NCBI GenBank assembly: GCA_013334525.1
Contig: JAAXXK010000008.1
Location: 3,614-67,613, forward strand
Direction: 5' to 3'
Source: Chlorobiaceae bacterium
GTDB taxonomy: Bacteria > Bacteroidota > Chlorobiia > Chlorobiales > Chlorobiaceae
Length of the DNA: 64,000 bases
Shown: positions 574-15,828 of the stretch, in pieces
Layout of the letters: every line of letters begins with the position of its first letter
Numbering within the stretch: the first letter of the stretch is position 1
The notes under the pieces: model-generated
Seen by the model: only the letters and a program-made list of their open reading frames with translations
Databases searched by the model: none
What the model was told of the DNA's origin: nothing
Made by a program: the position numbers and the translations under genes

Positions 574-1187
574 AGGCTCTGCAACACCGATGTGACCCTG
601 TCAACGGCATTTAAAAAAAAACTTCTTAAGCTCATGTTCTCTGGGATTTTACAGCTGTTCCTGCCCTGTTTGCCATCTGATCGCCCTGCCCATCTATAAC
701 GCCAATCAACGTTGCGCCTGCAGTGCCGGGCTCCTTTTCCGACAACCAATCTGTTTCAGTGGCAATCCATTTGTCGGAACGTCATTGTCTGATACCGTCT
801 TGCCGTTTATGGACTGATCGCTCCAGGCTCCAAAGTTTTAAAAAAATATGATCTGCGTCCTGCTTTTTACTGATGGCAGTACCCTGGAACTGGGCTTGCC
901 TTCAATACAGGCCCGGTAATGGTTTTATCGACCATGAATCAGCCTGCCTGCATAACGGATTGCTCGTCGTTTATGATATCTCATATCAGGAAAAGGAATT
1001 CCACTCTTTTTGCGGCATGTCGGAAACCCTGCATTTGTTTACCACATAGACAAATAAAAGCATGATTTGATTTTTCAAATATGTTGCCAACTGTTGACGC
1101 CCGCTTCATAATCGTATCGATTTACGATCGTATTCTTGGGTTACTGCTTTTGCCATGGTTTCAAAAATCCATAACAGGAATCCCGTA
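574..1187. other. Non-coding stretch before the giant gene
   Basis: About 610 bp in which I see no convincing gene: the only open frame of note (minus strand, 564-749) lacks a ribosome binding site and resembles no family. The last 100 bp are AT-rich and contain two close ATCGTAT copies (about 1113-1133). The region presumably holds the promoter of the next gene. Confidence 0.4.
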
Positions 1188-4100
1188 ATGGCTAACTTAT
1201 CCCTCATCAATGCGAGCGTCGATGGTCTGGGCAATATCGTGACCCTTTATTTCAGTGAGGTTCTCGATACCGTCCACCTTCCATCAATTTCACAGTTTGT
1301 CGTCGATAACAGCGGCAGCAAGACTATCAGTGGTCTGCAGGTTGTCAACAATCAGGTGATCCTGAATCTTGATTCTCCCCTGAATACCGCGTTGCCCGTT
1401 ACGGTTTCGTACACCGATCCCACAGGGGGCAACGATACAAATGCAATTCAGGGCATTGCCGGTATTGATCTCGCTTCATTCTCCAACGTTGTAGTCAACA
1501 ACGCTCTTGAGTTGACGCCCAGTTTATCGGAAACCTTTTCGCTGGGTTCTTCGATTGCGCTTCCATACGGTGCCGAAATATCAGCTTTCGATGAGGCTAG
1601 CGGACGACTGTTTGTTACTTCGCCGAACTCAGGGCTTCAGGTTGTCCAGGTTGATTCCCAGTATCATATGACGCTTCTCGGTACCATTTCACTGGGGAGC
1701 AACGATGTGAACAGCGTTGCGGTCAAAAACGGCATTGTCGCCGTTGCTGTTGCCGCTGCAGACAAGACACAGCCAGGGAGCGTCTATTTTCTGGATGCTG
1801 ACGGCACGGTCGGCAACAGCTCGATGATCATCGGCAGCGCCACGGTCGGTGCCCTTCCCGATATGCTGACTTTCAGCGCAGACGGAAGCAAGGTTCTTGT
1901 GGCCAACGAAGGTGAGCGCAACACTCCTGCAGATATAACCGCGCTCAAGTCTGCCATTGATCCGGATGGTTCGGTCAGCATCATAGATATAAGCGACCTT
2001 AACCACATATCTGTCACGACAGCATCGTTTGATCCTTCAATTGTCGGCACCATAGCCGATCTCAAAGCTGAAGGTGTGCGCCTGTTTGCCGGAAATACTG
2101 GTTTTGAGACCACGACACTTGCCCAGGACCTCGAACCGGAATACATAAGCATTTCACCTGACGGGGCAAAGGCATTTGTCACCCTTCAGGAGAACAACGC
2201 CATCGGGATTCTCGATCTCGATACGGCAAGTCCTACCTACGGCAAATTCACCGATATCGTCCCATTAGGCCTGAAAAGCTTCCTTGGCCTGCCATTCGAC
2301 GGAAGTGACAAGGACGGCGGCATAAACCTGCAGACTGACCAGCCTGTATTTGGCCAGCGCATGCCGGATGGCATCAGTTCCTTTACAGGTTCTGATGGAA
2401 AAACCTATTACGTTATCGCAAACGAAGGTGATGACCGTAATGATTTCCTTTCCTCCAGCACACCTGAAGCTGTTCGGTTGTCGACACTCGATCTTGACAA
2501 TACCGCATTCCCGAATGAAGCCGCATTGAAGACAAATGCAGAAATTGGTCGTCTGACGGTCTCCAATGCCTCCGGCAACAACGGCGATACCAATGGCGAT
2601 GGAGATATTGACCAGATCCTGACTTACGGTTCCCGCTCTTTCAGCATCCTTGACGAGCATGGAACCCTGGTTTTTGACAGCGGATCCCACATAGAACAAT
2701 TCGTGGCTGGAACGGGTGCCTTTAATTCGCAGGATCCGGCCAATTCAGGCCTTTTTATCGATACTCGCTCCGACAATAAAGGTCCGGAGCCGGAGGGTGT
2801 CTCAATCGGGCAGGTTGACGGAAGAACCCTTGCTTTCATAGGACTCGAACGTGCAGCCGGCGCGATACTCGTCTATGATGTCACCAATCCTCTGGATGTC
2901 ACCTTTGTCCAGTGCCTCCAGAATCCCGATGAATCCCAAAGCCTTGTCGGTGCCGACGGTGCTGCCTATGGTGCTGGTCCCGAAGGGCTGAATTTTGTGA
3001 CCTTTAATCAGCAGAACCTTCTGTTTGTTTCCAACGAATACTCGAAAACCGTAAGTCTTTACCACCAGAACAGTGCGCCGACGGTTGATCAGGCGATCAG
3101 CGATGTTTCAAAGGGGGAGAACACTCCTTTCACATTCATGGTCCCTGCCGGAACTTTCCAGGATCTGGATACCGGCGACAGCCTGACTTATACGGCAACG
3201 CTTGCTGATGGTTCTGCCCTGCCGTCATGGCTCCATTTTGACGGGGAACTTCAGGGTGCGCTGAACTATACCTCTTCCGCCATGGATTCCTACTTTTCAC
3301 TTGGTACATGGGCGGGGAACGTTGCAACAGATTCCGCATCGGCTGCAACGGCAATGTCTACGGGGGTGAAAACCGACGGCGGCAATATTTGCTGGCTGAG
3401 CGGTGATCCTGTCAATGGCTCGCTCACGACTATTGCTGAAACCCTGAAGGCCGATCTCGGTTATGCAATCGGTGTCGTGACAACGGTACCTTTCTCACAT
3501 GCCACCCCTGCCGGTTTTGTCAGCCACAACGTCAGTCGCAGCAATTATCAGGATATAGCCCATGAAATCCTGTTCACGACGGAGCCGGATGTCGTGATCG
3601 GAGGCGGCCTTGATTCACTTTTTGCAAAAGCGGTCAAAAATTCTGCGGGTCAGAGCACCGATCTCGACGGAAACGGATACAACGATGACTATGATGTGTT
3701 CAGGGATGCGAATCCTGACAACAATAACGGCTACTCATTTGTTCAGCGGGAAACGGGTGTCGACGGAGGAACAGCACTTGCGGCAAAAGCCGCTGAAGTG
3801 GACATTACGAACGGAGACAAGCTATTTGGCCTCTTCGGTACGTCGGGCGGTAACTTCGAGTATTACAACGTATCAGACACCCCAGGCACTCCGACCATTA
3901 CACGGAGCACGACGGACAGTACTCCGGCAGTGGATGAAGATCCTACTCTGGCCGAAATGACCTTGACAACCCTGTCGGTACTGAACAAGGACCCGCAGGG
4001 ATTTTTCGTGATGTTCGAGCAGGGAGACATCGACTGGAGCAATCACGCCAACGATTACGAGAATATGGTCGGCGGCACATACGATCTCGAGCAGGCCGTT

Positions 4101-5222
4101 ACAGCAGCAGAGACCATGGTTGGTTCCAGCGTGAACGGAATGGACTGGTCGAACACACTGATGATTGTCACGAGCGATCACTCGAACAGCTACATGCGTC
4201 TCCAGCAGGAGGCGGGTCTCGGCAATCTGCTCGACAAGGCTGCCGGGGAGGTAACCTACAGTTCAGTCAACCATACGAATGAGCTGGTAACCCTCCAGGC
4301 AAGAGGTGCAGGCGCGCAGCTCTTCAGTGAGTATGCCGGTCGCCTTTATGCAGGAACGGACATCGTAGACAATACAGACATCTACAATGTGATGAAGTCG
4401 GCAGCAGAAGATCTCGGCGTTGACCACATCATCCTGTTTATCGGTGACGGCATGAACATCGAGCATGAAATTGCCGCCAGCCAGTATCTCTACGGAAAGG
4501 ATTTCGGACTGACCTGGCAAGACTGGGGCCAGCTTGAAGATGGATGGGCCGGGTACGCGAGTACATGGGATGTCACCTCCTACAACACCTATGCAGCCAA
4601 AGCAGGTGTGGCGGCTTACAGCCCGAGCACATTCGATCCAGCAATAGGATACAATACTGCGCTGGGTGGCGAAACACCCCTGCCGATCGGGGTGACGTTC
4701 AGCGGCACGGCGGACCACTCGGATGTTGGCTCGCTGGAGATACTGGTAACGGCTACAGACGAGAGCGGCGCCACGTCAAGCGATACGTTTAACCTTACGG
4801 TGACGGACAGCACGGCACCGACCGTAACGGCATTCAATCCTGTCGATGGGGCGACAGGGGTTGCGATCGACAGCACTATCCAGCTCACCTTCAGCGAGAA
4901 TGTCGAGCTGCACGAAGGTACGATCGCAATCCACAGCGGTTCGGTAACGGGATTGACTGTAGCGTCGGACATATCGGTTTCGGGCAATACCCTCACGCTT
5001 GACCCGACCGGATTGCTTTCCAACGATACAGAGTACTTTGTGACCTTCTCTGATGGAAGTCTTGCTGACTTGTCAGGAAATCATTACGGTGGGACATCTT
5101 CGTTTAATTTCAGCACGGTGGCGGCAGCTCATGCAATTTCCGGTTCAGGCGATGGCGGCAGTGCCACCGGAGTGCTTGTCGGAGCCGGTGCGCTTGGCCT
5201 GCTTGCTATGCTGATATTCTGA
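1188..5222 (+). CDS. Choice-of-anchor-I / Ig-like protein with an inserted, circularly permuted alkaline phosphatase domain
   Basis: Residues are numbered from the upstream in-frame ATG at 1155 (1355 aa); the ATG at 1188 is the likelier start because AGGA lies 8 bp before it. Order: N-terminal SwmB-like beta domain (about 12-110); choice-of-anchor-I beta-propeller-like region (about 115-650); Ig-like (He_PIG type) domain starting about 660 and interrupted after FDG (697); phosphatase insert (698-1179); rest of the Ig-like domain from VTFSGT (1180); a Big_5/SbsA-type Ig domain (about 1225-1325); and a hydrophobic C-terminal tail. In the insert the Ser727 region (TDSAS), E955/D960/H964, D1008/H1009 and H1040 come first; the usual N-terminal strand with D1098 (FIGDGMN) follows at about 1090. 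This is a circular permutation with all catalytic and zinc ligands kept. No N-terminal signal peptide is apparent, so the export route is unclear; a surface or periplasmic role in phosphate release is inferred. Confidence 0.85.
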   Translation: MANLSLINASVDGLGNIVTLYFSEVLDTVHLPSISQFVVDNSGSKTISGLQVVNNQVILNLDSPLNTALPVTVSYTDPTGGNDTNAIQGIAGIDLASFSNVVVNNALELTPSLSETFSLGSSIALPYGAEISAFDEASGRLFVTSPNSGLQVVQVDSQYHMTLLGTISLGSNDVNSVAVKNGIVAVAVAAADKTQPGSVYFLDADGTVGNSSMIIGSATVGALPDMLTFSADGSKVLVANEGERNTPADITALKSAIDPDGSVSIIDISDLNHISVTTASFDPSIVGTIADLKAEGVRLFAGNTGFETTTLAQDLEPEYISISPDGAKAFVTLQENNAIGILDLDTASPTYGKFTDIVPLGLKSFLGLPFDGSDKDGGINLQTDQPVFGQRMPDGISSFTGSDGKTYYVIANEGDDRNDFLSSSTPEAVRLSTLDLDNTAFPNEAALKTNAEIGRLTVSNASGNNGDTNGDGDIDQILTYGSRSFSILDEHGTLVFDSGSHIEQFVAGTGAFNSQDPANSGLFIDTRSDNKGPEPEGVSIGQVDGRTLAFIGLERAAGAILVYDVTNPLDVTFVQCLQNPDESQSLVGADGAAYGAGPEGLNFVTFNQQNLLFVSNEYSKTVSLYHQNSAPTVDQAISDVSKGENTPFTFMVPAGTFQDLDTGDSLTYTATLADGSALPSWLHFDGELQGALNYTSSAMDSYFSLGTWAGNVATDSASAATAMSTGVKTDGGNICWLSGDPVNGSLTTIAETLKADLGYAIGVVTTVPFSHATPAGFVSHNVSRSNYQDIAHEILFTTEPDVVIGGGLDSLFAKAVKNSAGQSTDLDGNGYNDDYDVFRDANPDNNNGYSFVQRETGVDGGTALAAKAAEVDITNGDKLFGLFGTSGGNFEYYNVSDTPGTPTITRSTTDSTPAVDEDPTLAEMTLTTLSVLNKDPQGFFVMFEQGDIDWSNHANDYENMVGGTYDLEQAVTAAETMVGSSVNGMDWSNTLMIVTSDHSNSYMRLQQEAGLGNLLDKAAGEVTYSSVNHTNELVTLQARGAGAQLFSEYAGRLYAGTDIVDNTDIYNVMKSAAEDLGVDHIILFIGDGMNIEHEIAASQYLYGKDFGLTWQDWGQLEDGWAGYASTWDVTSYNTYAAKAGVAAYSPSTFDPAIGYNTALGGETPLPIGVTFSGTADHSDVGSLEILVTATDESGATSSDTFNLTVTDSTAPTVTAFNPVDGATGVAIDSTIQLTFSENVELHEGTIAIHSGSVTGLTVASDISVSGNTLTLDPTGLLSNDTEYFVTFSDGSLADLSGNHYGGTSSFNFSTVAAAHAISGSGDGGSATGVLVGAGALGLLAMLIF

Positions 5223-5297
5223 TGATTTTGTTTGCCTTTGTTGCGTAAGCTTTATCTCTGAAAGAAGAAACTTGCACCACTGAATGCAGCTTTACTG

Positions 5298-5359
5298 TTC
5301 CGGCAGAAAACGACAAGATAATCAGCACCATTAGCAAGTCGTCTTCTGCCGGATTTTTC
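5298..5359 (+). terminator. Hairpin with T-run after the phosphatase gene
   Basis: TCCGGCAGAAAACGAC (5299-5314) pairs with GTCGTCTTCTGCCGGA (5338-5353) with one G-U pair, and TTTTT follows. The loop is long (23 nt), but position and tail fit a rho-independent terminator 75 bp downstream of the stop. Confidence 0.6.
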
Positions 5360-5680
5360 GGTTTTTAACCTGAAAATGCCAATCAGTGTTCCCCCGAGAG
5401 AAAACCTGATTTGCGACAAGTTCTTCAAACTATATTGTTCTGCACTCCCGTCCCTCTCCGAGAAGCCTTGTTGCTGATATCCGGTTCCTCGCCTCTGGTA
5501 TTTCACTTTGGAGGTTTGAGTCCGGATCGTAAATAACCGCAAATACCAGCTCCTTCTGATGCTTTTGTTCATGATTTCCTGAGGTGAAAGCCTCATGCAT
5601 GAGATCGAGAACGCCATTGAAGGTCCGAATCGATGGATTTCTGCCGTCCTCTTCGCCAAAGCTTTGATGACCGTGCCGGT
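5360..5680. other. Gene-free stretch between terminator and repeat copy 2
   Basis: No gene is supported. An open minus-strand frame (5252-5659) spans the terminator hairpin and has a composition unlike the real proteins here. The start of the stretch carries a small element with arms TTTTCGGTT and AACCTGAAAA (5355-5376) that recurs in the pscA leader. Confidence 0.4.
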
Positions 5681-5812
5681 CTGGATACCGATTTTATTAA
5701 AGCCACGGTAAAGAGCTTTTGAAATGCTTATATTTTTTCAGATGACCGTTTAACCTTCGGTCAGCAGATAATCGGCTTATATGGCGAATTTGTGATCGGT
5801 TTGCGGCATGTG
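5681..5812 (+). repeat. Intergenic repeat, copy 2
   Basis: Second full copy of the 446-573 repeat: 60 of 61 positions identical in the core (5681-5741), then diverging similarity with shared GTTTAACC and CGGCATG blocks up to about 5812. It ends about 55 bp before the mutL start, so it forms part of the mutL upstream region. Confidence 0.8.
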
Positions 5813-5868
5813 GTTTTTCAAAAGCCCATGTGAGATGGTCACTGAAAGAAAATCGTGCTTATCTTTTT

Positions 5869-7746
5869 ATGGCCTCCATTGTAAAACTTCCTGATATTGT
5901 CGCCAATAAAATCTCGGCCGGCGAGGTTGTGCAGCGGCCGGCCTCCGTGGTCAAGGAACTCCTCGAAAACTCCATCGATTCCGGAGCATCCCGCATTACC
6001 GTCGTTATCCGTGATGCCGGCAAGCAGCTTATCCAGATCATCGACAACGGTTGCGGTATGGGGAGCGAAGATGCCCTGCTCAGCATGGAGCGGTTCGCCA
6101 CCAGCAAGATTACCGGTGTGGACGATCTGGATGCCCTGATGACCCTGGGCTTCAGGGGCGAGGCGCTGGCCAGCATCTCTTCGGTTTCGCATTTCGAGCT
6201 GAAAACCCGCAGGGCGGCCGATCAGCTTGGTACGCTGGTCAGGAGCGATGGCGGAGTGGTTGAAGCTCCCGAGCCGACCCAGTGCGAGGCGGGTACGATG
6301 ATTTCGGTACGGAACCTCTTTTTCAACGTACCGGCCCGGCGCAAGTTCCTCAAATCAAACGCCACGGAGTTCAAACATATCCACGAAACCGTCAAGGCGC
6401 TTGTGCTGGCCTATCCCGAGATCGAGTGGCGCATGATCAACGACGACGACGAGCTTTTTCATTTCCGGACTCCCGATGTACGCGAGCGGCTCAACCTGTT
6501 CTATGGCGAGGGGTTTGGCGACAGCCTCATCGAGGTTACCGAGGATAACGACTACCTCTCTGTCGGAGGATACCTCGGCAAACCAGGCATGATGGCCCGG
6601 CAGAAGCACGACCAGTATTTCTACATCAACCGGCGCATCGTCCAGAACCGGATGCTGGTGCAGGCTGTCCAGCAGGCATACGGCGAACTGCTCGAAGAGC
6701 GCCAATCCGCATTTGTGCTGCTGTTTCTTGGAATCGATCCGTCAAAGGTCGACGTGAATGTGCATCCCGCGAAACTTGAGGTGCGGTTCGAGGATGAACG
6801 AAGCGTAAGGAACATGGTCTATCCGGTCATCAAACGCGCGATACAGTTGCATGATTTTTCTCCCGAGGCCGCTTCGGTTAATGCCGGTTCGACTTTTTCG
6901 GAAGTGAGCGGCTTCAGCGGCGGAGCCGACAGAAGACTCGGTTTTCCCTCGTTTTCCGGCAAGGCGTCAACCACCGGGGATCTCTACAGGAACTACAGCC
7001 AGGGTGCGTTCAACTATGCCGATTCCAGGGATCGGCAGCTTCCCGTGGAGCTTTTTCCGGAGAAGGTCTCCGCAGAAAATCCGGTCGAGGAGCGTTATAC
7101 GGTAAACGAAGCAGGCCTGACTCCCGCATCCGGACAGCCGGCCATCGACGACGATGCGGCAAGGGTCACAGCGGACAAGGAGCCGAAAATCTGGCAGTTG
7201 CACAACAAGTACATCGTTTGCCAGATCAAGACGGGCCTGATGATCATAGACCAGCACGTCGCACATGAACGGGTGCTTTATGAACGCGCCATCGACGTGA
7301 TGAACGAGGAGGTTCCCAACTCCCAGCAGCTTCTGTTTCCGCAGAAAATCGATCTCAAGGCATGGCAGTACGAGGTCTATGAAGAGATCAGCGAAGAGAT
7401 CTACCGGCTCGGCTTCAATATCAGGCCGTTCGGCGGCATGAGCGTCATGATCGAGGGAGTCCCGCCCGATGTGCGTGATGGCACCGAGTCGACGATCCTG
7501 CAGGATATGATCGCCGAGTACCAGGAAAACGCCTCGAAACTGAAACTCGAAAAGCGGGACAACCTGGCCAAGTCATACTCCTGCCGCAATGCCATCATGA
7601 CCGGGCAGAAGCTCAACGTCGACGAGATGAGGATGCTGATCGACAGGCTTTTCGCGACCCGGATGCCATACGTATGCCCCCACGGGCGGCCGGTCATCAT
7701 CCGGTTGTCGCTGGACGAGTTGGACAGGATGTTCGGTCGGAAGTAG
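5869..7746 (+). CDS. mutL: DNA mismatch repair protein MutL
   Basis: Mismatch-repair ATPase that couples MutS recognition to strand incision. The start at ATG 5869 gives MASIVKLPDIVANKISAGEV, the conserved MutL N-terminus; an upstream in-frame GTG (5830) would add 13 unsupported residues. The protein is 625 aa. The GHKL ATPase domain shows ENSIDSGAS, DNGCGM and GFRGEAL. The C-terminal dimerisation domain has DQHVAHERVLYE, SCRNAIMTGQ and CPHGRP, close to the DQHA(X)2E(X)4E and CPHGRP motifs of MutL proteins with intrinsic nicking endonuclease activity, so this is probably a nicking MutL rather than the MutH-dependent E. coli type. A low-complexity linker lies between them. It appears monocistronic. 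Confidence 0.97.
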   Translation: MASIVKLPDIVANKISAGEVVQRPASVVKELLENSIDSGASRITVVIRDAGKQLIQIIDNGCGMGSEDALLSMERFATSKITGVDDLDALMTLGFRGEALASISSVSHFELKTRRAADQLGTLVRSDGGVVEAPEPTQCEAGTMISVRNLFFNVPARRKFLKSNATEFKHIHETVKALVLAYPEIEWRMINDDDELFHFRTPDVRERLNLFYGEGFGDSLIEVTEDNDYLSVGGYLGKPGMMARQKHDQYFYINRRIVQNRMLVQAVQQAYGELLEERQSAFVLLFLGIDPSKVDVNVHPAKLEVRFEDERSVRNMVYPVIKRAIQLHDFSPEAASVNAGSTFSEVSGFSGGADRRLGFPSFSGKASTTGDLYRNYSQGAFNYADSRDRQLPVELFPEKVSAENPVEERYTVNEAGLTPASGQPAIDDDAARVTADKEPKIWQLHNKYIVCQIKTGLMIIDQHVAHERVLYERAIDVMNEEVPNSQQLLFPQKIDLKAWQYEVYEEISEEIYRLGFNIRPFGGMSVMIEGVPPDVRDGTESTILQDMIAEYQENASKLKLEKRDNLAKSYSCRNAIMTGQKLNVDEMRMLIDRLFATRMPYVCPHGRPVIIRLSLDELDRMFGRK

Positions 7747-7753
7747 AGGAAGA

Positions 7754-7798
7754 AATGGAGAAAATGGACAAAATGGACTTTATGGACGGTATGGACAA
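7754..7798 (+). repeat. 9-bp tandem repeat ATGGACnnn, five units (site A)
   Basis: Five consecutive 9-bp units starting ATGGAG/ATGGAC with variable third triplets begin 7 bp after the mutL stop. The unit is the same as in the larger inverted repeats at 17592-17737 and 48530-48692. Confidence 0.75.
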
Positions 7799-7875
7799 CA
7801 GCAGGACTTGCCTTGAGAGTTTTCGTTCATTAAGTTCATTCGTCGCCATCCATCGACTGCCTGTTGTCGTGGAAT

Positions 7876-7904
7876 TTGTTTCTTTGAGGTCTTGTTTGTA
7901 CATT
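7876..7904 (+). promoter_or_regulatory. Putative sigma-70-type promoter for tRNA-Arg
   Basis: TTGTTT (7876-7881), a 17-bp spacer and TACATT (7899-7904), about 20 bp upstream of the mature tRNA 5' end. Inferred from spacing only. Confidence 0.4.
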
Positions 7905-7923
7905 AACGCCGAAAGGACGGTAT

Positions 7924-7996
7924 ACCCTTGTAGCTCAGAGGATAGAGCAGCAGTTTCCTAAACTGTTGGTCGGCAGTTCGAGTCTGCCCAAGGGTA
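7924..7996 (+). tRNA. tRNA-Arg (anticodon CCU)
   Basis: A complete cloverleaf can be drawn: acceptor ACCCTTG with CAAGGGT, D stem GCTC/GAGC, anticodon stem GCAGT/ACTGT with loop TTCCTAA, T stem GGCAG/CTGCC with loop TTCGAGT. The anticodon CCT reads AGG. CCA is not encoded. A terminator hairpin follows about 40 bp downstream. Confidence 0.95.
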
Positions 7997-8034
7997 CTCC
8001 TCACCACACATGAGCCCGAGCACACGGGAAAAAC

Positions 8035-8060
8035 AGCAGGGTTTGTCCCTGCTTTTTTTT
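8035..8060 (+). terminator. Terminator after tRNA-Arg
   Basis: AGCAGGG, a 5-nt loop, CCCTGCT, then a run of eight T. Confidence 0.85.
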
Positions 8061-8096
8061 ATGTCCGGATGCGATTTATCGAACTGTTTCGAACGC

Positions 8097-8558
8097 TTAT
8101 TTCTGGATGCATTCGCCTTTTCCTGCACCCTGGCCGGCTCCCGATCCGGGCCTCATTGTCCCACTGGTATTCTGGTCCCAAACCCATGCGGCAACCGCAT
8201 TCAGTTCAGCTTCGTTGAGCGTAACGGGCGGCATCATTCCGAAGCGTACAATTGCCTGAGGATCGGCCAGTACCTTTTCCTTGGATGGAGATTTGATGAA
8301 GGCCGCCATTCGACTGATTCCCTCGGTTCGCGAAGAAATCTTCTGATGATAGCGGGCTGAAATCGGTACGATGGGTGGAGCCAGCTTTGGCGGAGGTGAT
8401 ATCGAATGGCAAACGCTGCAGTTTTTGTCGAAAACGGCTTTACCGTCGACGGCTGCCGAGGCGGTTTGGGGGAAGGTACCGGTCACTGACCCTGAAAGGC
8501 CTATAACAAGGCCGGTCAGGATAATTTTTTCTGCATTGTTCATGGTTCGTTCATTCAT
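8097..8558 (-). CDS. Small mono-haem c-type cytochrome, exported
   Basis: The protein has a hydrophobic N-terminal segment (IILTGLVIGLSG) ending in a signal-peptidase-like TASA-AVDG site, then one CXXCH haem motif (CSVCH) about 20 residues into the mature chain. A methionine in GMMPP further on is the likely sixth haem ligand, and the helix NAVAAWVW follows. The mature size is about 120 aa, typical of class I cytochromes c, with an extra Gly/Lys-rich tail. The start at 8558 (MNERTMNN) is chosen to place the signal peptide at the N-terminus; ATG 8543 is equally possible, and upstream ATGs would add an implausible leader. It probably carries electrons in the periplasm, but it does not look like the short soluble cytochrome c-555, and its partners are unknown. 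It is divergent from mtgA. Confidence 0.85.
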   Translation of the reverse strand: MNERTMNNAEKIILTGLVIGLSGSVTGTFPQTASAAVDGKAVFDKNCSVCHSISPPPKLAPPIVPISARYHQKISSRTEGISRMAAFIKSPSKEKVLADPQAIVRFGMMPPVTLNEAELNAVAAWVWDQNTSGTMRPGSGAGQGAGKGECIQK

Positions 8559-8768
8559 GGGTTTCTCAAAAAGGAGACTATTCCTTTCGATATCATCACG
8601 AAGGAAAATATAACCAATAAAAGGGTTCATCGCGCTGTCGATAAGGTTGGCAGGAATAACCCATCGAAGATGATACGCTTTTTCGGAAGGTATTATTGTT
8701 TTCATGGGGAGTCCTAAATAATTATACTTTCAGGACAGTATCGTCTTCAGGAACCGGACATTACCCCT

Positions 8769-9605
8769 ATGAAATTTCTCAGGAACGCCATTCTTCTTCT
8801 CGTGCTTTTTCTGGTTGTCGATGTGGCCAGATATGCTGTTTATCCAGACGTTTCGAGACTGGTCAAAACCAATCCCGGCAAAACCGCATTCATGGAGTAC
8901 CGGGAGGCCGAGTGGCGCAAGGAGGGCCTTGACAAGACCATCAGCCAGCGATGGGTGCCGCTGAAAAAGGTTTCGCCCGCGCTGGTCAAGGCGATCCTTA
9001 TCTCTGAGGACGACAAGTTCTGGAAGCATGATGGATTCGACTACGAGGCTATCGAGAGCGCCGTCGAAAAAAACATGAAAGCGGGAAAATTCAAGTTCGG
9101 GGGTAGCACCATCAGCCAGCAGCTTGCCAAGAACCTCTATCTTTCGCCCTCGAAGAATCCGATCCGGAAGGTCAAGGAGGCCATTCTTACCTGGCGTATC
9201 GAGCGTACGCTCTCCAAACGGCGCATTCTCGAACTCTATGTCAACATCGCCGAATGGGGTGATGGCATTTTCGGAATCGAGGAGGCCGCCCACCATTACT
9301 ACGGCACCAGTGCAGCCGGACTTTCCGCCGGCCAGGCCTCAAAGCTTGCGGCCGTGCTCCCGAATCCGATACGCTATATCCCGACCGGTTCGTCCCGTTT
9401 TGTGACAGCCCGTTCAAACCGTATTTATTCCATCATGGTGAAACGGGGGGTCGTTGTTCCCGATTTTCAGGAGGTGATGTCACCTGCCGATGGTCAGGGG
9501 GGCGCGCCTGCCGATTCCGTAGTCATAGGTATACCGCTCGATATGATCGACGCGGCAACAAAGCCTGACAGTACCAAAGGGGCAAAAAGCGAACCCGGCA
9601 ACTGA
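8769..9605 (+). CDS. mtgA: Monofunctional biosynthetic peptidoglycan transglycosylase
   Basis: Polymerises lipid II into glycan strands at the outer face of the inner membrane (GT51 family). There is one N-terminal membrane segment (FLRNAILLLVLFLVVDVARY) followed by the GT51 domain, with the family motifs EDDKFWKHDGFD (catalytic Glu), GGSTISQQLAKN, RKVKEAILTWRIE and ELYVNIAEWGDGIFGIEEAA. There is no transpeptidase domain, so it is MtgA rather than PBP1. It is 278 aa, slightly longer than typical MtgA because of a C-terminal tail of about 30 aa rich in Ala, Asp and Lys. It is followed by the convergent rubredoxin gene. Confidence 0.95.
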   Translation: MKFLRNAILLLVLFLVVDVARYAVYPDVSRLVKTNPGKTAFMEYREAEWRKEGLDKTISQRWVPLKKVSPALVKAILISEDDKFWKHDGFDYEAIESAVEKNMKAGKFKFGGSTISQQLAKNLYLSPSKNPIRKVKEAILTWRIERTLSKRRILELYVNIAEWGDGIFGIEEAAHHYYGTSAAGLSAGQASKLAAVLPNPIRYIPTGSSRFVTARSNRIYSIMVKRGVVVPDFQEVMSPADGQGGAPADSVVIGIPLDMIDAATKPDSTKGAKSEPGN

Positions 9606-9618
9606 TGGTCGCCGGGTT
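9592..9618 (+). terminator. Weak hairpin overlapping the mtgA stop
   Basis: AACCCGGC pairs with GCCGGGTT over an 11-nt loop that contains the mtgA stop codon. No T-run follows, so it is a weak candidate. Confidence 0.3.
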
Positions 9619-9686
9619 GATGCGAGTGGCATAAATCTTTTGTTCCGGCAGCAGCTTTTATTCTGCAGGTTCCGGCATGAACAGGT

Positions 9687-9845
9687 TTATGCTGGTTCGA
9701 AAAACGATTTGTCGACGCCGCAGACCGGACAAACCCAGTCATCAGGCAGATCTTCGAAAGCCGTTCCCGGCTCTATGCCGTTTTCTGTATCGCCGGAAGC
9801 GGGATCGTACTCATATCCACAAGGAACGCAGACCCATTTGCCCAT
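9687..9845 (-). CDS. Rubredoxin (52 aa)
   Basis: Small single-iron electron-transfer protein. Reading the minus strand from ATG at 9845 gives 52 residues starting [15 protein letters not shown] and containing VCPVCGVD, i.e. the two CXXC-G knuckles that ligate one Fe(Cys)4 centre, with the conserved aromatic core (YEYDP and DDWVCP). GAGGAG lies 8 bp before the start. The length is exactly that of classic rubredoxins. Green sulfur bacteria carry several rubredoxins, used in electron transfer and oxygen or peroxide detoxification; the neighbours here do not show which partner this one serves. Confidence 0.93.
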
Positions 9846-10055
9846 AATAGAATCTCCTCAATAAAGTTGATTTGGAAAGCCATTAACATGAAGAACATGA
9901 AGGATGTGCATCAATGAACCTCTTTCATGGGGAACATTTGTACACCTCGCCGTACTGTACTCATTAAAAGCATCATAGAGATAAAAAGTTCATTGATGCG
10001 GATTCCTCGTTAAAGATATGGAATCGAAGATTCCCAAAAAAAGCAGGAAAACAGG

Positions 10056-10466
10056 ATGAAATGGACACGTGCATTATCGGCATGGTTTGCGATCATGTCA
10101 CTCGAATCGGTAAGCGGAACCCTTCGCAGGCTTTATCTCGTGCCCGCGGCAGGTGAGCTTCGGGCGCATCAGATCGGCATGACGGTCGGTTGCGTCATTA
10201 TTTTTACCATCACCTGGTTCACCATCGACTGGATCGGGAGCTGTTCTTTCCGCACTCAGTTCAGGGTTGGCTTGCTATGGGTGTTTCTTACCATACTTTT
10301 TGAATCCGGCCTGGGGATTTTGTTTGGTTACGGTCCCGATCGAATCATTGCCGACTATGACCTTTCCCGTGGTGGCCTGATGGGGCTTGGCCTGATCTTC
10401 CTGCTCTTCGCTCCAGCGCTGGCGGCCTCATGGCGCGGCCATCTTCGAAACCGGAAACCAGTTTGA
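10056..10466 (+). CDS. Hypothetical four-helix membrane protein
   Basis: Not recognised as a named family. The 136 residues contain about four hydrophobic segments (ALSAWFAIMSLES; MTVGCVIIFTITWFTIDWIG; VGLLWVFLTILFESGLGILFG; GLMGLGLIFLLFAPALAASW), so it is an integral inner-membrane protein. An AGGAAAAC stretch before the ATG could be the ribosome binding site. It is flanked by the rubredoxin gene and the end of amrB, with no operon partner. Confidence 0.7.
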   Translation: MKWTRALSAWFAIMSLESVSGTLRRLYLVPAAGELRAHQIGMTVGCVIIFTITWFTIDWIGSCSFRTQFRVGLLWVFLTILFESGLGILFGYGPDRIIADYDLSRGGLMGLGLIFLLFAPALAASWRGHLRNRKPV

Positions 10467-10611
10467 GCGGTTGTTTATTTTGTTTGAATAATGAGGATGC
10501 TTCCATGATGTGCATGGTGCATCTGCAAGGTCGATCCCGATTACCAGTGCGGGTGGCAAGGAAATGAAGGCTTTACCGATGCGATCGAAAAGTGCAGGAG
10601 GCGTTTTCGTG

Positions 10612-11460
10612 TTAATGGAATGCGATCGCCCCGTATCCTACAACTGCAGAACGGTCGTCATGGTCGGCATCTCCGCTGTTCTGGTACGAAATCTCTTCTG
10701 CCACCCATCCGAACCTTCTGCCGATTTCGAGTACGGTTTTGACGGCATCGGGGCTGCAGTATGTAGAGATGGCTCCGTTGATACCCCTTTTCCTTACATC
10801 CTTTTCATGTTGTTCAAGCCCGTCGATATCCATTTTCACCATATGGTCGAGCGTTGTCCGGTCGATGCTCCTTGCATCAAGGTACGAAGGGTAGTGCGAA
10901 AGGTCGGTGCTTGCCACGACAAGGTCTTCGGTGGTCATGACCGATAGCAGGTAATCTGCGGCCCTGCGGCAGACGTCCGGCTTGTTCCGCCCGAAAAGTA
11001 CCGGCAGGATTGAAAAGCCCGGTTTGAGCGAGTGCTGAAGGAACGGAAGCTGGACTTCAAGGACATGGTCGCAGTGGTGGGCAATGTCGAGTTTGTGGAA
11101 CAGCCCAGGGTCGAGATCGATCAACCGGCTTCCCATAGCATGGTCAACGGGAACCGTTCCGAAGGGTGAGTGCCATGATTCGTGCAGATCGATGGTGATG
11201 CCTTCGAACAGGTAGGAGTGGGCGTTTCCAAGGAGGATTACCGTCCGGAAGCTGCGTCCTTCGATGGATTTGAACGCATCTGCGGATACGGTGCCGCTGT
11301 ACCGGTATGCGGCATGAGGCACAATGAGCGCCCTGGGGGTGTTCATTCCCGGACGCTGGTGCGCATTATGGAAAAGATCTGTGAGCATGGCATTGAGTTC
11401 CCCGGCATCAGACGGGTAGAACTCTTCAGCAACAGCGGGATAACGGACTCTTTTATTCAT
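10612..11460 (-). CDS. amrB: AmmeMemoRadiSam system protein B (MEMO1 family)
   Basis: Memo-like protein, structurally related to extradiol dioxygenases, part of the poorly understood AmmeMemoRadiSam set. The start at 11460 gives MNKRVRYPAVAEEFYPSDAGEL, the expected N-terminus (RxPAVAGxFYP type); the 17 extra upstream residues are unsupported. Family signatures visible are PRALIVPHAAYRYSG, ILLGNAHS, ATDLSHYPSYLDA and YCSPDAVKTVLE; the histidines are candidate metal ligands. It starts 11 bp after the amrS stop, so it is the last gene of dapF-amrS-amrB. The third usual partner, AmrA (AMMECR1 family), is not in the window. Confidence 0.9.
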   Translation of the reverse strand: MNKRVRYPAVAEEFYPSDAGELNAMLTDLFHNAHQRPGMNTPRALIVPHAAYRYSGTVSADAFKSIEGRSFRTVILLGNAHSYLFEGITIDLHESWHSPFGTVPVDHAMGSRLIDLDPGLFHKLDIAHHCDHVLEVQLPFLQHSLKPGFSILPVLFGRNKPDVCRRAADYLLSVMTTEDLVVASTDLSHYPSYLDARSIDRTTLDHMVKMDIDGLEQHEKDVRKRGINGAISTYCSPDAVKTVLEIGRRFGWVAEEISYQNSGDADHDDRSAVVGYGAIAFH

Positions 11461-11471
11461 GGTTAACGGGC

Positions 11472-12479
11472 TCAGTCTTTTATGGGTGAAAGTGCTTTGC
11501 ATGAAGGGCATGCCCCTGTCGCATCGTACCTCACTGCAGAAGGATGACCGAGCATTTTACGTCTGGATACCAGCTTTTTGCCACAATACCTGCAGACGGT
11601 GTCATCTTGAGCAGTTCCTGAATATACATATAACAATCCTGCGTTTCGACCAATGGTTCCTGCAGACGCAAGTGCGGCGGCATTTGAGGCTGGGCTCTCC
11701 TCCGGTTTCCCTGAAATCCGAGGGTGAAACGGGATCGGGTGCCAGGGGATTTCAGGGCCGAGATCCCGGGCAATAAACCCGGCAAGCCGTTCGAGCATGG
11801 CCGGACTGTCCGAATGGCCGGCAGTGATCGGAGTCGTGATTTCAAGGTGAACTCCGTTTGCGTAGATATACCGGAGGTTTTCGAGTACCGGTTCCACGCG
11901 GGCTCCACAGATTCGCCGGTAATAAGCATCGTCCATCGACCTGAGATCGATGTTGATCGCGTCGAGCCATGGTAAAATTGCATCCAGGCAGTTTGTCGAC
12001 ATGTATCCGTTGCTCACCCAGATGTTTCTGAGCCCGGCATTTCTGGCCAGCCTCATGATTTCAAGCGCATATTCAGCAAAGATGGTCGGTTCGGAACGGG
12101 AGCAGGAGATCGAAGAGCATCCTGCCTTAATGGCGTTTTCGACAATCTGCCCGGGAGAGGTGAAGGGGATGTCAACCTCGTCCCGGCCGGATCGGCTTGA
12201 CTCCAGGTTCAGGCAGTCGGCAGAGGTGAAGTTGCAGCCGGGAGTACCGAACGCCCATGTACTGGTGCCCGGCTTGAAATGGTAGAGGGGCAGTTGCTCG
12301 ACAGGCTCGCCCGTCTGGGCGAGAGCATGGCCGAAACTCAGCGAACAAAGCCGGCCATCGACGATCCTGCGCACCCGGCACAGGCCGCTCCGATCCGGCC
12401 TGATGCGGCAGTAGTGCCGGCAGAGGTCGCACTGGAGCGTCCCGTCCGAAGCTTCATGATAGAATCCTGCCGCGTGCAT
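11472..12479 (-). CDS. amrS: AmmeMemoRadiSam system radical SAM protein, cluster motif altered
   Basis: The 335-aa protein has the AmrS layout: an N-terminal cysteine region (CDLCRHYCRIRPDRSGLC, residues 17-34) and a radical SAM barrel. The CX3CX2C motif that binds the [4Fe-4S] cluster reads C82-NFT-S86-AD-C89: the middle cysteine is Ser (codon TCT at 12222-12224). The next residues (CLNLE) also differ from the usual CQNWE, and a usual SIAYTYNEP-like stretch reads SISCSRSEP. Radical SAM chemistry is therefore probably impaired unless C85-C90-region residues or another ligand substitute. It sits 12 bp downstream of dapF and 11 bp upstream of amrB. A sequencing error could explain S86 but not the neighbouring drift. 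Confidence 0.85.
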   Translation of the reverse strand: MHAAGFYHEASDGTLQCDLCRHYCRIRPDRSGLCRVRRIVDGRLCSLSFGHALAQTGEPVEQLPLYHFKPGTSTWAFGTPGCNFTSADCLNLESSRSGRDEVDIPFTSPGQIVENAIKAGCSSISCSRSEPTIFAEYALEIMRLARNAGLRNIWVSNGYMSTNCLDAILPWLDAINIDLRSMDDAYYRRICGARVEPVLENLRYIYANGVHLEITTPITAGHSDSPAMLERLAGFIARDLGPEIPWHPIPFHPRISGKPEESPASNAAALASAGTIGRNAGLLYVYSGTAQDDTVCRYCGKKLVSRRKMLGHPSAVRYDATGACPSCKALSPIKD

Positions 12480-12491
12480 CCCGTATAATTC

Positions 12492-13286
12492 CTAAATGGT
12501 TATCGTCCCCTGGTAAACCGTTCTGGCAGGGCCTTCGAGATAAATTTCATCCATTTCGTCGTTGAACCCGACTTCGAGGATGTCTCCGCTCCTGACCTTC
12601 ACACTGACAGGGGAAGATGCGACCAGCCCCAGCCGGTGGCTCATCAGCGCACAGGCGACCGCTCCTGTTCCGCAGGCGAGGGTCTCGTCTTCCACGCCGC
12701 GTTCGAAAGTCCTTACGCTGATGCTGTCAGGTGCCGTTACCTGAACGAAATTAACGTTTGTGCCTTCGGGAAAATAGTCCTTTCTGTGCCGGATTGATTT
12801 ACCTTCGCCGTAGACGTCCACTTCGTCGAGCCCTTCGGTATAAATGATCACATGCGGCGATCCGGTATTGACAAAATGGCAGGGCCAGTCACCGATCTGC
12901 AGGCCGCTTCTGAAGTCGGAAGGGGGAAGCATGTGTAGCCTGACGGTCTCCTCGTCGGTCACGTCGGCTTCGTAGCGACCTGAACCGGCTTCGAAAACAT
13001 AACGCTCTCCGAAAGGCGTGATGCCTATCATGAATGCGAAGTAGACGGCGCACCGGCCGCCGTTGCCGCACATCGATCCGGGAAAACCGTCGGCGTTGTG
13101 GTAATTCATCCTGAAGTCGCCGTTATCGGTATTTTCGATGAGGATCAGTCCATCGGCCCCGATCCCTGTCCTTCTGGTGCACATGGCACGGATCTGCTCA
13201 TGGTCGAGGTTTATTCGACCCCTCAGGTTGTCGATAACGATGAAATCGTTTCCTGCACCCGACATTTTTGTGAAATTGATTTGCAT
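12492..13286 (-). CDS. dapF: Diaminopimelate epimerase
   Basis: Converts LL- to meso-diaminopimelate for lysine and peptidoglycan synthesis, in the cytoplasm, without a cofactor. The start at 13286 (MQINFTKMSGAGNDF) is the conserved N-terminus; the frame runs 13 codons further upstream without support. The protein is 264 aa. Both catalytic cysteines are visible: SMCGNGGRCA and TLACGTGAVACA. First gene of the minus-strand operon with amrS and amrB; the link to those two genes is positional only. Confidence 0.97.
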   Translation of the reverse strand: MQINFTKMSGAGNDFIVIDNLRGRINLDHEQIRAMCTRRTGIGADGLILIENTDNGDFRMNYHNADGFPGSMCGNGGRCAVYFAFMIGITPFGERYVFEAGSGRYEADVTDEETVRLHMLPPSDFRSGLQIGDWPCHFVNTGSPHVIIYTEGLDEVDVYGEGKSIRHRKDYFPEGTNVNFVQVTAPDSISVRTFERGVEDETLACGTGAVACALMSHRLGLVASSPVSVKVRSGDILEVGFNDEMDEIYLEGPARTVYQGTITI

Positions 13287-13632
13287 AGTGTTTTTCTGAA
13301 CCCTGTTTATTCTGTTAATTACCACAATTGCCGGAGTGCCGGGTGCGGTGGCGCAAAAGAGCGCAATGTCTGTAATGCCCTTCTTGCGGCGGTGATAGAG
13401 GGCAAAAAACTTTACTATTAAATAAATTTTCTTATTTTATTTACTACTGTTGCAGGGTAATTATTTTACTAAATTATCATGTAAGACTGTTTTTTCCGGA
13501 ATGTCTCCTGCCTCATCAGCAACAGATAAACGTTGCGGATGAGTGTTGAATGGTCGTGATTGATGGAGACGCGTTACCGGTTTTTTCGGTTTCTTCAACC
13601 TGAAAATACGTCCAAACAAAGGAGAGAATACA
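13287..13632. other. Divergent intergenic region dapF / pscA with pscA leader
   Basis: No gene is seen. The middle (about 13410-13490) is very AT-rich and should hold the pscA promoter. The pscA leader contains an imperfect stem with arms TTTTCGGTT and AACCTGAAAA (about 13584-13606), similar to 5355-5376. A Shine-Dalgarno AAAGGAGAG precedes the pscA ATG. Confidence 0.5.
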
Positions 13633-15828
13633 ATGGCTGAACAAGTGAATCCCGCAGGGGTCAAGCCGAAGGGGACGGTACCTCCTCCAAAGGGGAATGT
13701 ACCAGCTCCAAAGGCAAATGGCGCGCCAGGCGGAGCATCGGTCATTAAAGAGCAGGATGCCGCCAAGATGAGACGTTTTCTGTTCCAGCGAACAGAAACA
13801 CGCTCGACGAAGTGGTACCAGATTTTTGATACCGAAAAAGTCGATGACGAACAGGTGGTGGGTGGCCATCTCGCCCTGCTCGGAGTGCTCGGCTTCATCA
13901 TGGCGATTTACTACCTTTCGGGCATCCAGGTTTTTCCCTGGGGAGCTCCCGGTTTCCACGACAACTGGTTTTATCTGACCATCAAGCCGCGAATGGTTTC
14001 GCTTGGAATTGATACTTACAGTACCAAAACCGACGATCTCGCATTTGCCGGCTCCAAGCTCATCGGTTGGGCGCTGTTTCACTTTATTTCCGGTTCCATC
14101 CTGCTCTTCGGCGGTTGGCGCCACTGGACTCACAACCTGACCAACCCGTTCACCGGTCGTGCAGGTAACTTCCGTGATTTCAGGTTCCTTGGTGTGTTCG
14201 GTGACGCGGTTTTCAGCGGTACCAGCGCCAAGTCCTACAAAGAAGCGCTTGGGCCACACGCCGTCTACATGTCGCTGCTTTTCCTTGGCTGGGGCCTTCT
14301 GATGTGGCTTGTGCTCGGGTTTGCTCCGATTCCAAACTTCCAGACGATCAACTCCGAAACCTTCATGTCATTCGTGTGGTTCGTGGTTTTCTTCGCCCTG
14401 GGTATCTACTGGTGGAACAATCCCCCGAATGCGGCCATTCACCTGAACGACGACATGAAAGCCGCTTTCTCGGTCCACCTGACCGCAATCGGCTACATCA
14501 ACATCGCTCTCGGTGTCATCGCTTTCGTGGCCTTCCAGCAGCCGTCGTTCGCTCCTTACTACAAAGAGCTCGACAAGCTTGTATTCTACATTTATGGCGA
14601 GCCTTTCAACCGCGTAAGCTTCAACTTCGTTGAGCAGGGCGGCAAAGTAATCTCAGGATCGAAAGAGTTTGCCGAGTTCGCTCCCTATGCCATTCTGCCA
14701 AGGAACGGTGAAGCTTTCGGTATGTCGAGGGTTGTGACCAACCTTATTACCTTCAACCACATCATCTGCGGTGTGTTGTATGTGTTTGCCGGTGTCTACC
14801 ATGGTGGTCAGTACCTCCTCAAGATCCAGCTCAACGGCATCTACAACCAGATCAAGTCGATCTGGATCACCAAGGGCCGCGACCAGGAAGTCCAGGTCAA
14901 GATCCTCGGTACCGTTATGGCTCTCTGCTTCTCGACGATGCTTTCCGTTTATGCTGTTATCGTATGGAACACGATCTGCGAGCTGAACCTTTTCGGAACG
15001 AACATCATGATGTCGTTCTACTGGCTGAAACCTCTGCCGATATTCCAGTGGATGTTTGCCGACCCGAGTATCAACGACTGGGTTATGGCCCACGTTATTA
15101 CCGCCGGTTCGCTCTTCTCGCTGATCGCGCTTGTCCGTATCGCTTTCTTCGCACACACATCTCCGCTGTGGGATGATCTCGGCCTCAAGAAGAACTCCTA
15201 CTCGTTCCCGTGCCTCGGTCCGGTATACGGTGGTACCTGCGGCGTGTCCATTCAGGATCAGCTCTGGTTTGCCATGCTCTGGGGTGTCAAGGGTCTTTCC
15301 GCAGTCTGCTGGTACATTGACGGCGCATGGATTGCCTCGATGATGTACGGTGTGCCTGCTGCCGATGCAAAGGCCTGGGATTCGATCGCGCATCTGCATC
15401 ATCACTATACGTCGGGTATCTTCTACTACTTCTGGACTGAGACGGTGACGATCTTCTCGAGCTCGCACCTGTCGACCATCCTCATGATCGGTCACCTGGT
15501 GTGGTTCATCAGCTTCGCTGTATGGTTCGAGGATCGCGGTTCCCGTCTTGAAGGTGCTGACGTCCAGACCCGCACCGTCCGCTGGTTGGGCAAGAAGTTC
15601 CTCAACAGGGATGTGTCGTTCAGGTTCCCGGTTCTGACGATTTCGGACTCCAAGCTTGCCGGTACGTTCCTGTACTTTGGCGGTACCTTCATGCTGGTGT
15701 TCCTGTTCATTGCCAACGGCTTCTATCAGACCAACTCGCCACTGCCTCCGCCAGTCAGCCACGCAGCTGCATCAGGGCAGCAGATGCTGGCCCAGGTGGT
15801 TGATATGCTGATGAAACTGATTGCGTAA
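13633..15828 (+). CDS. pscA: Photosystem P840 reaction-centre core protein PscA
   Basis: Core polypeptide of the homodimeric type I reaction centre of green sulfur bacteria; it binds the P840 special pair, the accessory chlorins and, shared across the dimer, the FX iron-sulfur cluster. It is 731 aa, with a Lys/Pro-rich N-terminal tail (about 1-40) and then many hydrophobic membrane helices (11 in the family). The FX motif CLGPVYGGTC is at residues 527-536 (Cys527 and Cys536), so each monomer supplies two ligands. His-rich helices such as HLHHHYTSG are candidate pigment ligands. Preceded by AAAGGAGAG and followed by pscB after a strong hairpin. Confidence 0.98.
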   Translation: MAEQVNPAGVKPKGTVPPPKGNVPAPKANGAPGGASVIKEQDAAKMRRFLFQRTETRSTKWYQIFDTEKVDDEQVVGGHLALLGVLGFIMAIYYLSGIQVFPWGAPGFHDNWFYLTIKPRMVSLGIDTYSTKTDDLAFAGSKLIGWALFHFISGSILLFGGWRHWTHNLTNPFTGRAGNFRDFRFLGVFGDAVFSGTSAKSYKEALGPHAVYMSLLFLGWGLLMWLVLGFAPIPNFQTINSETFMSFVWFVVFFALGIYWWNNPPNAAIHLNDDMKAAFSVHLTAIGYINIALGVIAFVAFQQPSFAPYYKELDKLVFYIYGEPFNRVSFNFVEQGGKVISGSKEFAEFAPYAILPRNGEAFGMSRVVTNLITFNHIICGVLYVFAGVYHGGQYLLKIQLNGIYNQIKSIWITKGRDQEVQVKILGTVMALCFSTMLSVYAVIVWNTICELNLFGTNIMMSFYWLKPLPIFQWMFADPSINDWVMAHVITAGSLFSLIALVRIAFFAHTSPLWDDLGLKKNSYSFPCLGPVYGGTCGVSIQDQLWFAMLWGVKGLSAVCWYIDGAWIASMMYGVPAADAKAWDSIAHLHHHYTSGIFYYFWTETVTIFSSSHLSTILMIGHLVWFISFAVWFEDRGSRLEGADVQTRTVRWLGKKFLNRDVSFRFPVLTISDSKLAGTFLYFGGTFMLVFLFIANGFYQTNSPLPPPVSHAAASGQQMLAQVVDMLMKLIA

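Follow-up and report, generated by a model that had tools for sequence, protein, structure and literature searches.

An alkaline phosphatase in circularly permuted order, nested within an Ig-like domain, is real and conserved, and the arrangement is apparently undescribed. We found it in a Chlorobiaceae bacterium, in a 64,000-nucleotide stretch of DNA (the window) where an open reading frame (ORF) of 1355 amino acids at 1155-5222 on the forward strand contains a phosphatase insert of 482 residues (residues 698-1179, window 3246-4691). Judged from its sequence, this insert is a naturally circularly permuted alkaline phosphatase of the PhoA family. We consider it highly probable that the permuted enzyme occupies the turn of a hairpin in a CADG/He_PIG domain, that it originated by tandem duplication and spread as a module, and that it serves in phosphate scavenging at the cell surface. 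The features of the gene and its surroundings are as follows.

1155 to 5222, forward strand: ORF with an SWM repeat, choice-of-anchor I, a He_PIG/CADG host domain that the permuted phosphatase interrupts, Big_5 and a hydrophobic C-terminus (Pfam and NCBIfam)
1569 to 3065, forward strand: choice-of-anchor I domain, residues 139-637 (PF22494, 3.6e-88; NF038117, 1.2e-136)
3075 to 3245, forward strand: host He_PIG/CADG domain before the insert, up to ..LPSWLHFDG (PF05345; a joined-flank model matches uninterrupted domains in L005, L076 and L108)
3246 to 4403, forward strand: phosphatase C-part, first in the chain, with S102, H153, T155, R166, E322, D327, H331, D369, H370 and H412 (PF00245, 2.4e-43; residue table)
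4386 to 4427, forward strand: junction where the former C-terminus meets the former N-terminus, ..NVMKSA-AEDLGVD-H.. (permuted copies aligned against linear relatives)
4404 to 4691, forward strand: phosphatase N-part, last in the chain, HIILFIGDGMN, with D51 as residue 1098 (linear relatives, motif order, residue table, profile alignment)
4692 to 4802, forward strand: host He_PIG/CADG domain after the insert, VTFSGTADHSDVG... (Pfam; joined-flank model)
4806 to 5117, forward strand: Big_5 Ig-like domain (PF13205, 5.1e-22)
446 to 599, no strand: left member of a pair of direct repeats on either side of the gene (154 nt, about 84% identical)
5681 to 5833, no strand: right member of that pair, just upstream of mutL (154 nt, about 84% identical)

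The residue table agrees with the position that a first-pass annotation of this DNA had given for the insert. At the start of the window, positions 1-434 hold the end of an ORF in which a unit of 18 nt (6 aa) with a high content of K, P, E, S and A recurs in register at least 12 times.

Membership in the alkaline phosphatase family was evident from the Pfam profile PF00245, which matched the ORF at E 2.4e-43 (149 bits against a cut-off of 24.4). Along the chain, the catalytic positions run S102 (residue 727), H153 (782), T155 (784), R166 (795), E322 (955), D327 (960), W328 (961), H331 (964), D369 and H370 (1008 and 1009), H412 (1040) and only then D51 (1098); the usual, although not defining, order of the PhoA family has D51 before S102. 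All 11 of the 11 positions that make up the metal ligands, the nucleophilic serine and the arginine are present in the window copy, which bears out the earlier claim that every zinc and nucleophile position is kept, and the aligned rows showed no variation at them in any permuted copy covering them (L039 is cut off before S102). Among the relatives, dN/dS was low in the C-part and the N-part alike, around 0.05-0.35 where dS was unsaturated.

The permuted order, also claimed in the first-pass annotation, was confirmed by natural linear homologues and by profile alignment. By motif order at all loci, the C-part is followed by the N-part, with GDGM last, in all Chlorobiaceae copies in which both parts are covered. 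Relatives in linear order comprise ten different proteins, each free-standing, that come from Rubrivivax, Lamprocystis, a Thiobacillaceae MAG and other bacteria; the GDGM part comes first (N-then-C) in Rubrivivax, Lamprocystis, Thiobacillaceae, L059 and L099-L102, and identity to the window copy is roughly 50% (about 45-56%) across both parts. When the insert was aligned in its native order with distant linear alkaline phosphatases using hhalign, two crossing matches were obtained (19-385 to 93-429, E 7.8e-61; 388-481 to 35-127, E 1.6e-6), whereas the re-linearised insert gave a single collinear match (2-478 to 36-429). The breakpoint had been proposed to lie in a loop, and the linear relatives indeed read through a loop of the form GG..PYPLGPEL.GA..Y (GG..PYPLGPELPGA..Y) at the place where the window copy has both its ends, GGETPLPIG and ELQGALNY. 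Conversely, the old ends are joined via some seven residues (NVMKSA-AEDLGVD-HIILF) in the alignment of permuted copies against linear relatives. We rejected one further candidate line of evidence, a Pfam match starting only at profile position ~56, given that linear relatives start there too; re-linearising the insert did not lengthen the Pfam match. Sequence searches of the re-linearised chain against solved structures gave matches that again start at the C-part, and the assignment of the N-part therefore rests on the natural linear relatives, the profile alignment and the structural model.

Structure prediction, which had been suggested at the outset, gave a confident fold for the insert together with its host. 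AlphaFold2 reached a pLDDT of 68 and a pTM of 0.68 with 18 permuted rows alone, and a pLDDT of 88.2 and a pTM of 0.86 for host and insert with a mixed alignment of 58 rows, composed of more permuted rows and of unaltered (split) pieces of linear relatives. The matches listed by Foldseek for this model were alkaline phosphatases, with target-normalised TM scores of 0.57 to E. coli PhoA and 0.67 to TAB5 at high rmsd; modest TM and high rmsd are what a method that depends on chain order should give for a permuted protein. The model thus predicts an alkaline phosphatase fold for the insert. These data also bear on the possibility that the two parts are truncated fragments left by a decayed tandem duplication, with no working enzyme. 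Although a tandem array does exist, on the contig L049 described below, the 11 invariant active-site positions, the low dN/dS in both parts, the confidently predicted joint fold and the retention of the permuted form across the family make such decay very improbable.

The insert takes the place of a tight turn in the CADG/He_PIG domain, between LPxWLxF and FSGTP. Once it is removed the host domain is continuous, and the joined-flank model matches an uninterrupted CADG/He_PIG domain of a relative (L108, from G020) at 125 bits, in agreement with the earlier claim of an in-frame insert in an Ig-like domain and with He_PIG as that host. The empty insertion site can be seen in L005 and L108; in L108 the uninterrupted sister domain, reading LPGWLSFNAGTRTFSGTPDND, is flanked by two interrupted ones. 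The first-pass annotation had the new ends lying next to each other, which is plausible; such closeness would allow the phosphatase to fit in the hairpin, and it was perhaps the permutation that made the enzyme insertable.

Matches to the permuted phosphatase at E < 1e-20 were found in 26 of the 86 Chlorobiaceae genomes, mostly at 62-78% identity, and two of the carriers are single contigs (G012, 2,289,249 bases; G020, 2,797,276 bases). The source genome is a 79-contig draft, which could favour junctions produced by faulty assembly or binning, but the same order is shared by independent Chlorobiaceae genomes, including G012 and G020, and by a named record that is not a MAG (L041). We therefore regard such an error as ruled out, its remaining probability being negligible. 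The draft carries one phosphatase copy; no second copy, and hence no second complete linear one, was found in this genome. The plasmids searched contain no site that matches over 80% of the query, and the viral contigs searched contain no relative. Sampling of genomes from G110's phylum and order, G111's class and G114's phylum likewise brought up no additional permuted form. The location of the gene is not conserved, since mutL lies far from it in both G014 and G012. Long antisense frames run along the phosphatase gene at L109 (2504-5482, reverse strand, 992 aa) and L145 (8999-12250, reverse strand, 1083 aa), and these are probably an effect of base composition.

Phylogenetic analysis of 51 re-linearised or linear units placed the 28 permuted rows on one side of a branch with support of 95/94; the linear subfamily adjoins these rows, and more distant linear enzymes fall outside. 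This topology fits a single permutation in a linear ancestor. Outside the Chlorobiaceae, a contig of a Chloroflexota-labelled MAG (L049) encodes at 5194-11472 an apparent signal peptide and then a row of three permuted units in head-to-tail arrangement, without any domain between them, followed by BACON_2 and choice-of-anchor I. The units are 57-59% identical to the window copy, and no permuted copy was found in the other genomes sampled from the same phylum or order, so that they may have been acquired by transfer or lie on a mis-binned contig. The inner units of this spacer-less array can be read as linear equally well, and the active site might accordingly be completed between neighbouring units, or between chains by domain swapping, rather than within one chain. 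We consider this improbable, as the majority of the Chlorobiaceae proteins contain just one unit and the monomer is predicted to fold confidently.

For the origin of the permutation, both tandem duplication with trimming and a circular DNA intermediate had been put forward. Permutation by duplication predicts a tandem intermediate form (PMC3320104), and the L049 array has the tandem, end-trimmed shape expected of such an intermediate. This lends indirect support to duplication; we saw nothing that points to a DNA circle. Because its three units group with one another in the tree, the array itself may be a later amplification, not the original intermediate. Under this scheme, tandem duplication would have joined the old ends through a short linker, approximately AEDLGVD, and the chain would have reopened in the loop between the GDGM-bearing N-part and the nucleophile-bearing C-part. 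The resulting CADG[cpAP] module would then have spread and duplicated within the Chlorobiaceae, and the module as a whole is present in duplicate in G020, G006 and G078. At L043/L111 (G078:C49) two CADG[cpAP] modules with equal profile scores lie in one frame, which may stem from a recent duplication, from gene conversion or from a repeat in the assembly. A full account, in which a single origin by tandem duplication left an end-trimmed tandem survivor and the permutation enabled both the nesting of a large enzyme in an Ig-like hairpin and the spread of the module through phosphatase-bearing surface proteins, seems to us evenly poised between right and wrong. The first-pass annotation was correct about the arrangement itself; it took the permutation for an event at the source locus and did not foresee an old, spread module that forms one clade, with members in Chlorobiaceae and on the Chloroflexota-labelled contig.

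As to function, the permuted domain would be a two-zinc/Mg phosphomonoesterase of the Vibrio-like type (H153/W328) that is secreted or held at the surface and, carried in a scaffold with choice-of-anchor I and at times other phosphatase domains, scavenges phosphate from organic phosphates. Metallophos, Phytase-like and 5_nucleotid_C domains were all found in host proteins. One open frame, 3779 amino acids at L107 (G006:C14, ORF 2546-13882), combines a calcineurin-like phosphoesterase, a split choice-of-anchor I with a phytase-like domain, the C-terminal domain of 5'-nucleotidases, two CADG[cpAP] modules and Big_5, and the host protein of G014 has an extra calcineurin-like domain. Some host proteins therefore look like surface multi-phosphatases, by their domain content. 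In G020 and G010 the neighbouring genes include ones for RTX, DUF4347/FG-GAP and outer-membrane efflux proteins and, by eye, L043 ends in apparent RTX repeats at its C-terminus; the RTX and efflux neighbours and these repeats suggest type I secretion of the host proteins. DUF4347/FG-GAP repeat proteins are encoded directly downstream of the phosphatase gene at L108 (10223-13243) and L145 (13821-16688). The RTX, DUF4347/FG-GAP and efflux neighbours in two genomes, together with the absence of any phosphate-regulon genes seen beside the G012 copy, would suit a permuted fold as described here whose main role is other than phosphate scavenging, for example as a phosphodiesterase or in the editing of surface polymers. 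Such a role is possible but rather unlikely, given that the active-site residues are the set typical of alkaline phosphatases and that some host proteins bear other phosphatase domains. Secreted, surface-held phosphate scavenging is our best inference and the most likely role, since metallophosphatase, 5'-nucleotidase or phytase-like domains accompany the enzyme on some host proteins.

Alkaline phosphatase is among the best-studied enzymes, yet we found no description of a natural permuted form in term-match searches of the open-access literature, an absence that is weak evidence. In annotation, the odd order goes unnoticed because the family-profile match covers only the C-part here. Linear, tandem-trimmed, permuted and nested forms occur within one subfamily, which makes the steps of permutation and nesting directly testable with an easy assay.

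Compared with known PhoA-family alkaline phosphatases (PF00245; E. coli, Vibrio, TAB5), the insert has all the zinc, Mg, nucleophile and arginine positions, shares the H153/W328 variant with the Vibrio-type enzymes and matches the family in its predicted fold, but it is permuted, with new ends in the loop before the nucleophile strand, and it is nested inside another domain. The linear sister subfamily (Rubrivivax L053 and L058, Lamprocystis L054 and L056, L055, L059 and L099-L102) shares its motifs and the break-loop sequence PLGPEL.GA, but consists of stand-alone proteins of ~500-590 aa in normal order. A survey of domain insertion architectures found inserted domains to have close termini and typically 50-200 residues (PMC13114784); our insert likewise interrupts its host, but 482 residues in a host of only ~95 is unusual against that range. 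Finally, as in the permutation by duplication described for saposin/swaposin and DNA methyltransferases (PMC3320104), a form with a tandem, end-trimmed shape (L049) exists beside linear and permuted forms; the permuted alkaline phosphatase differs in having also become an insert in another domain.
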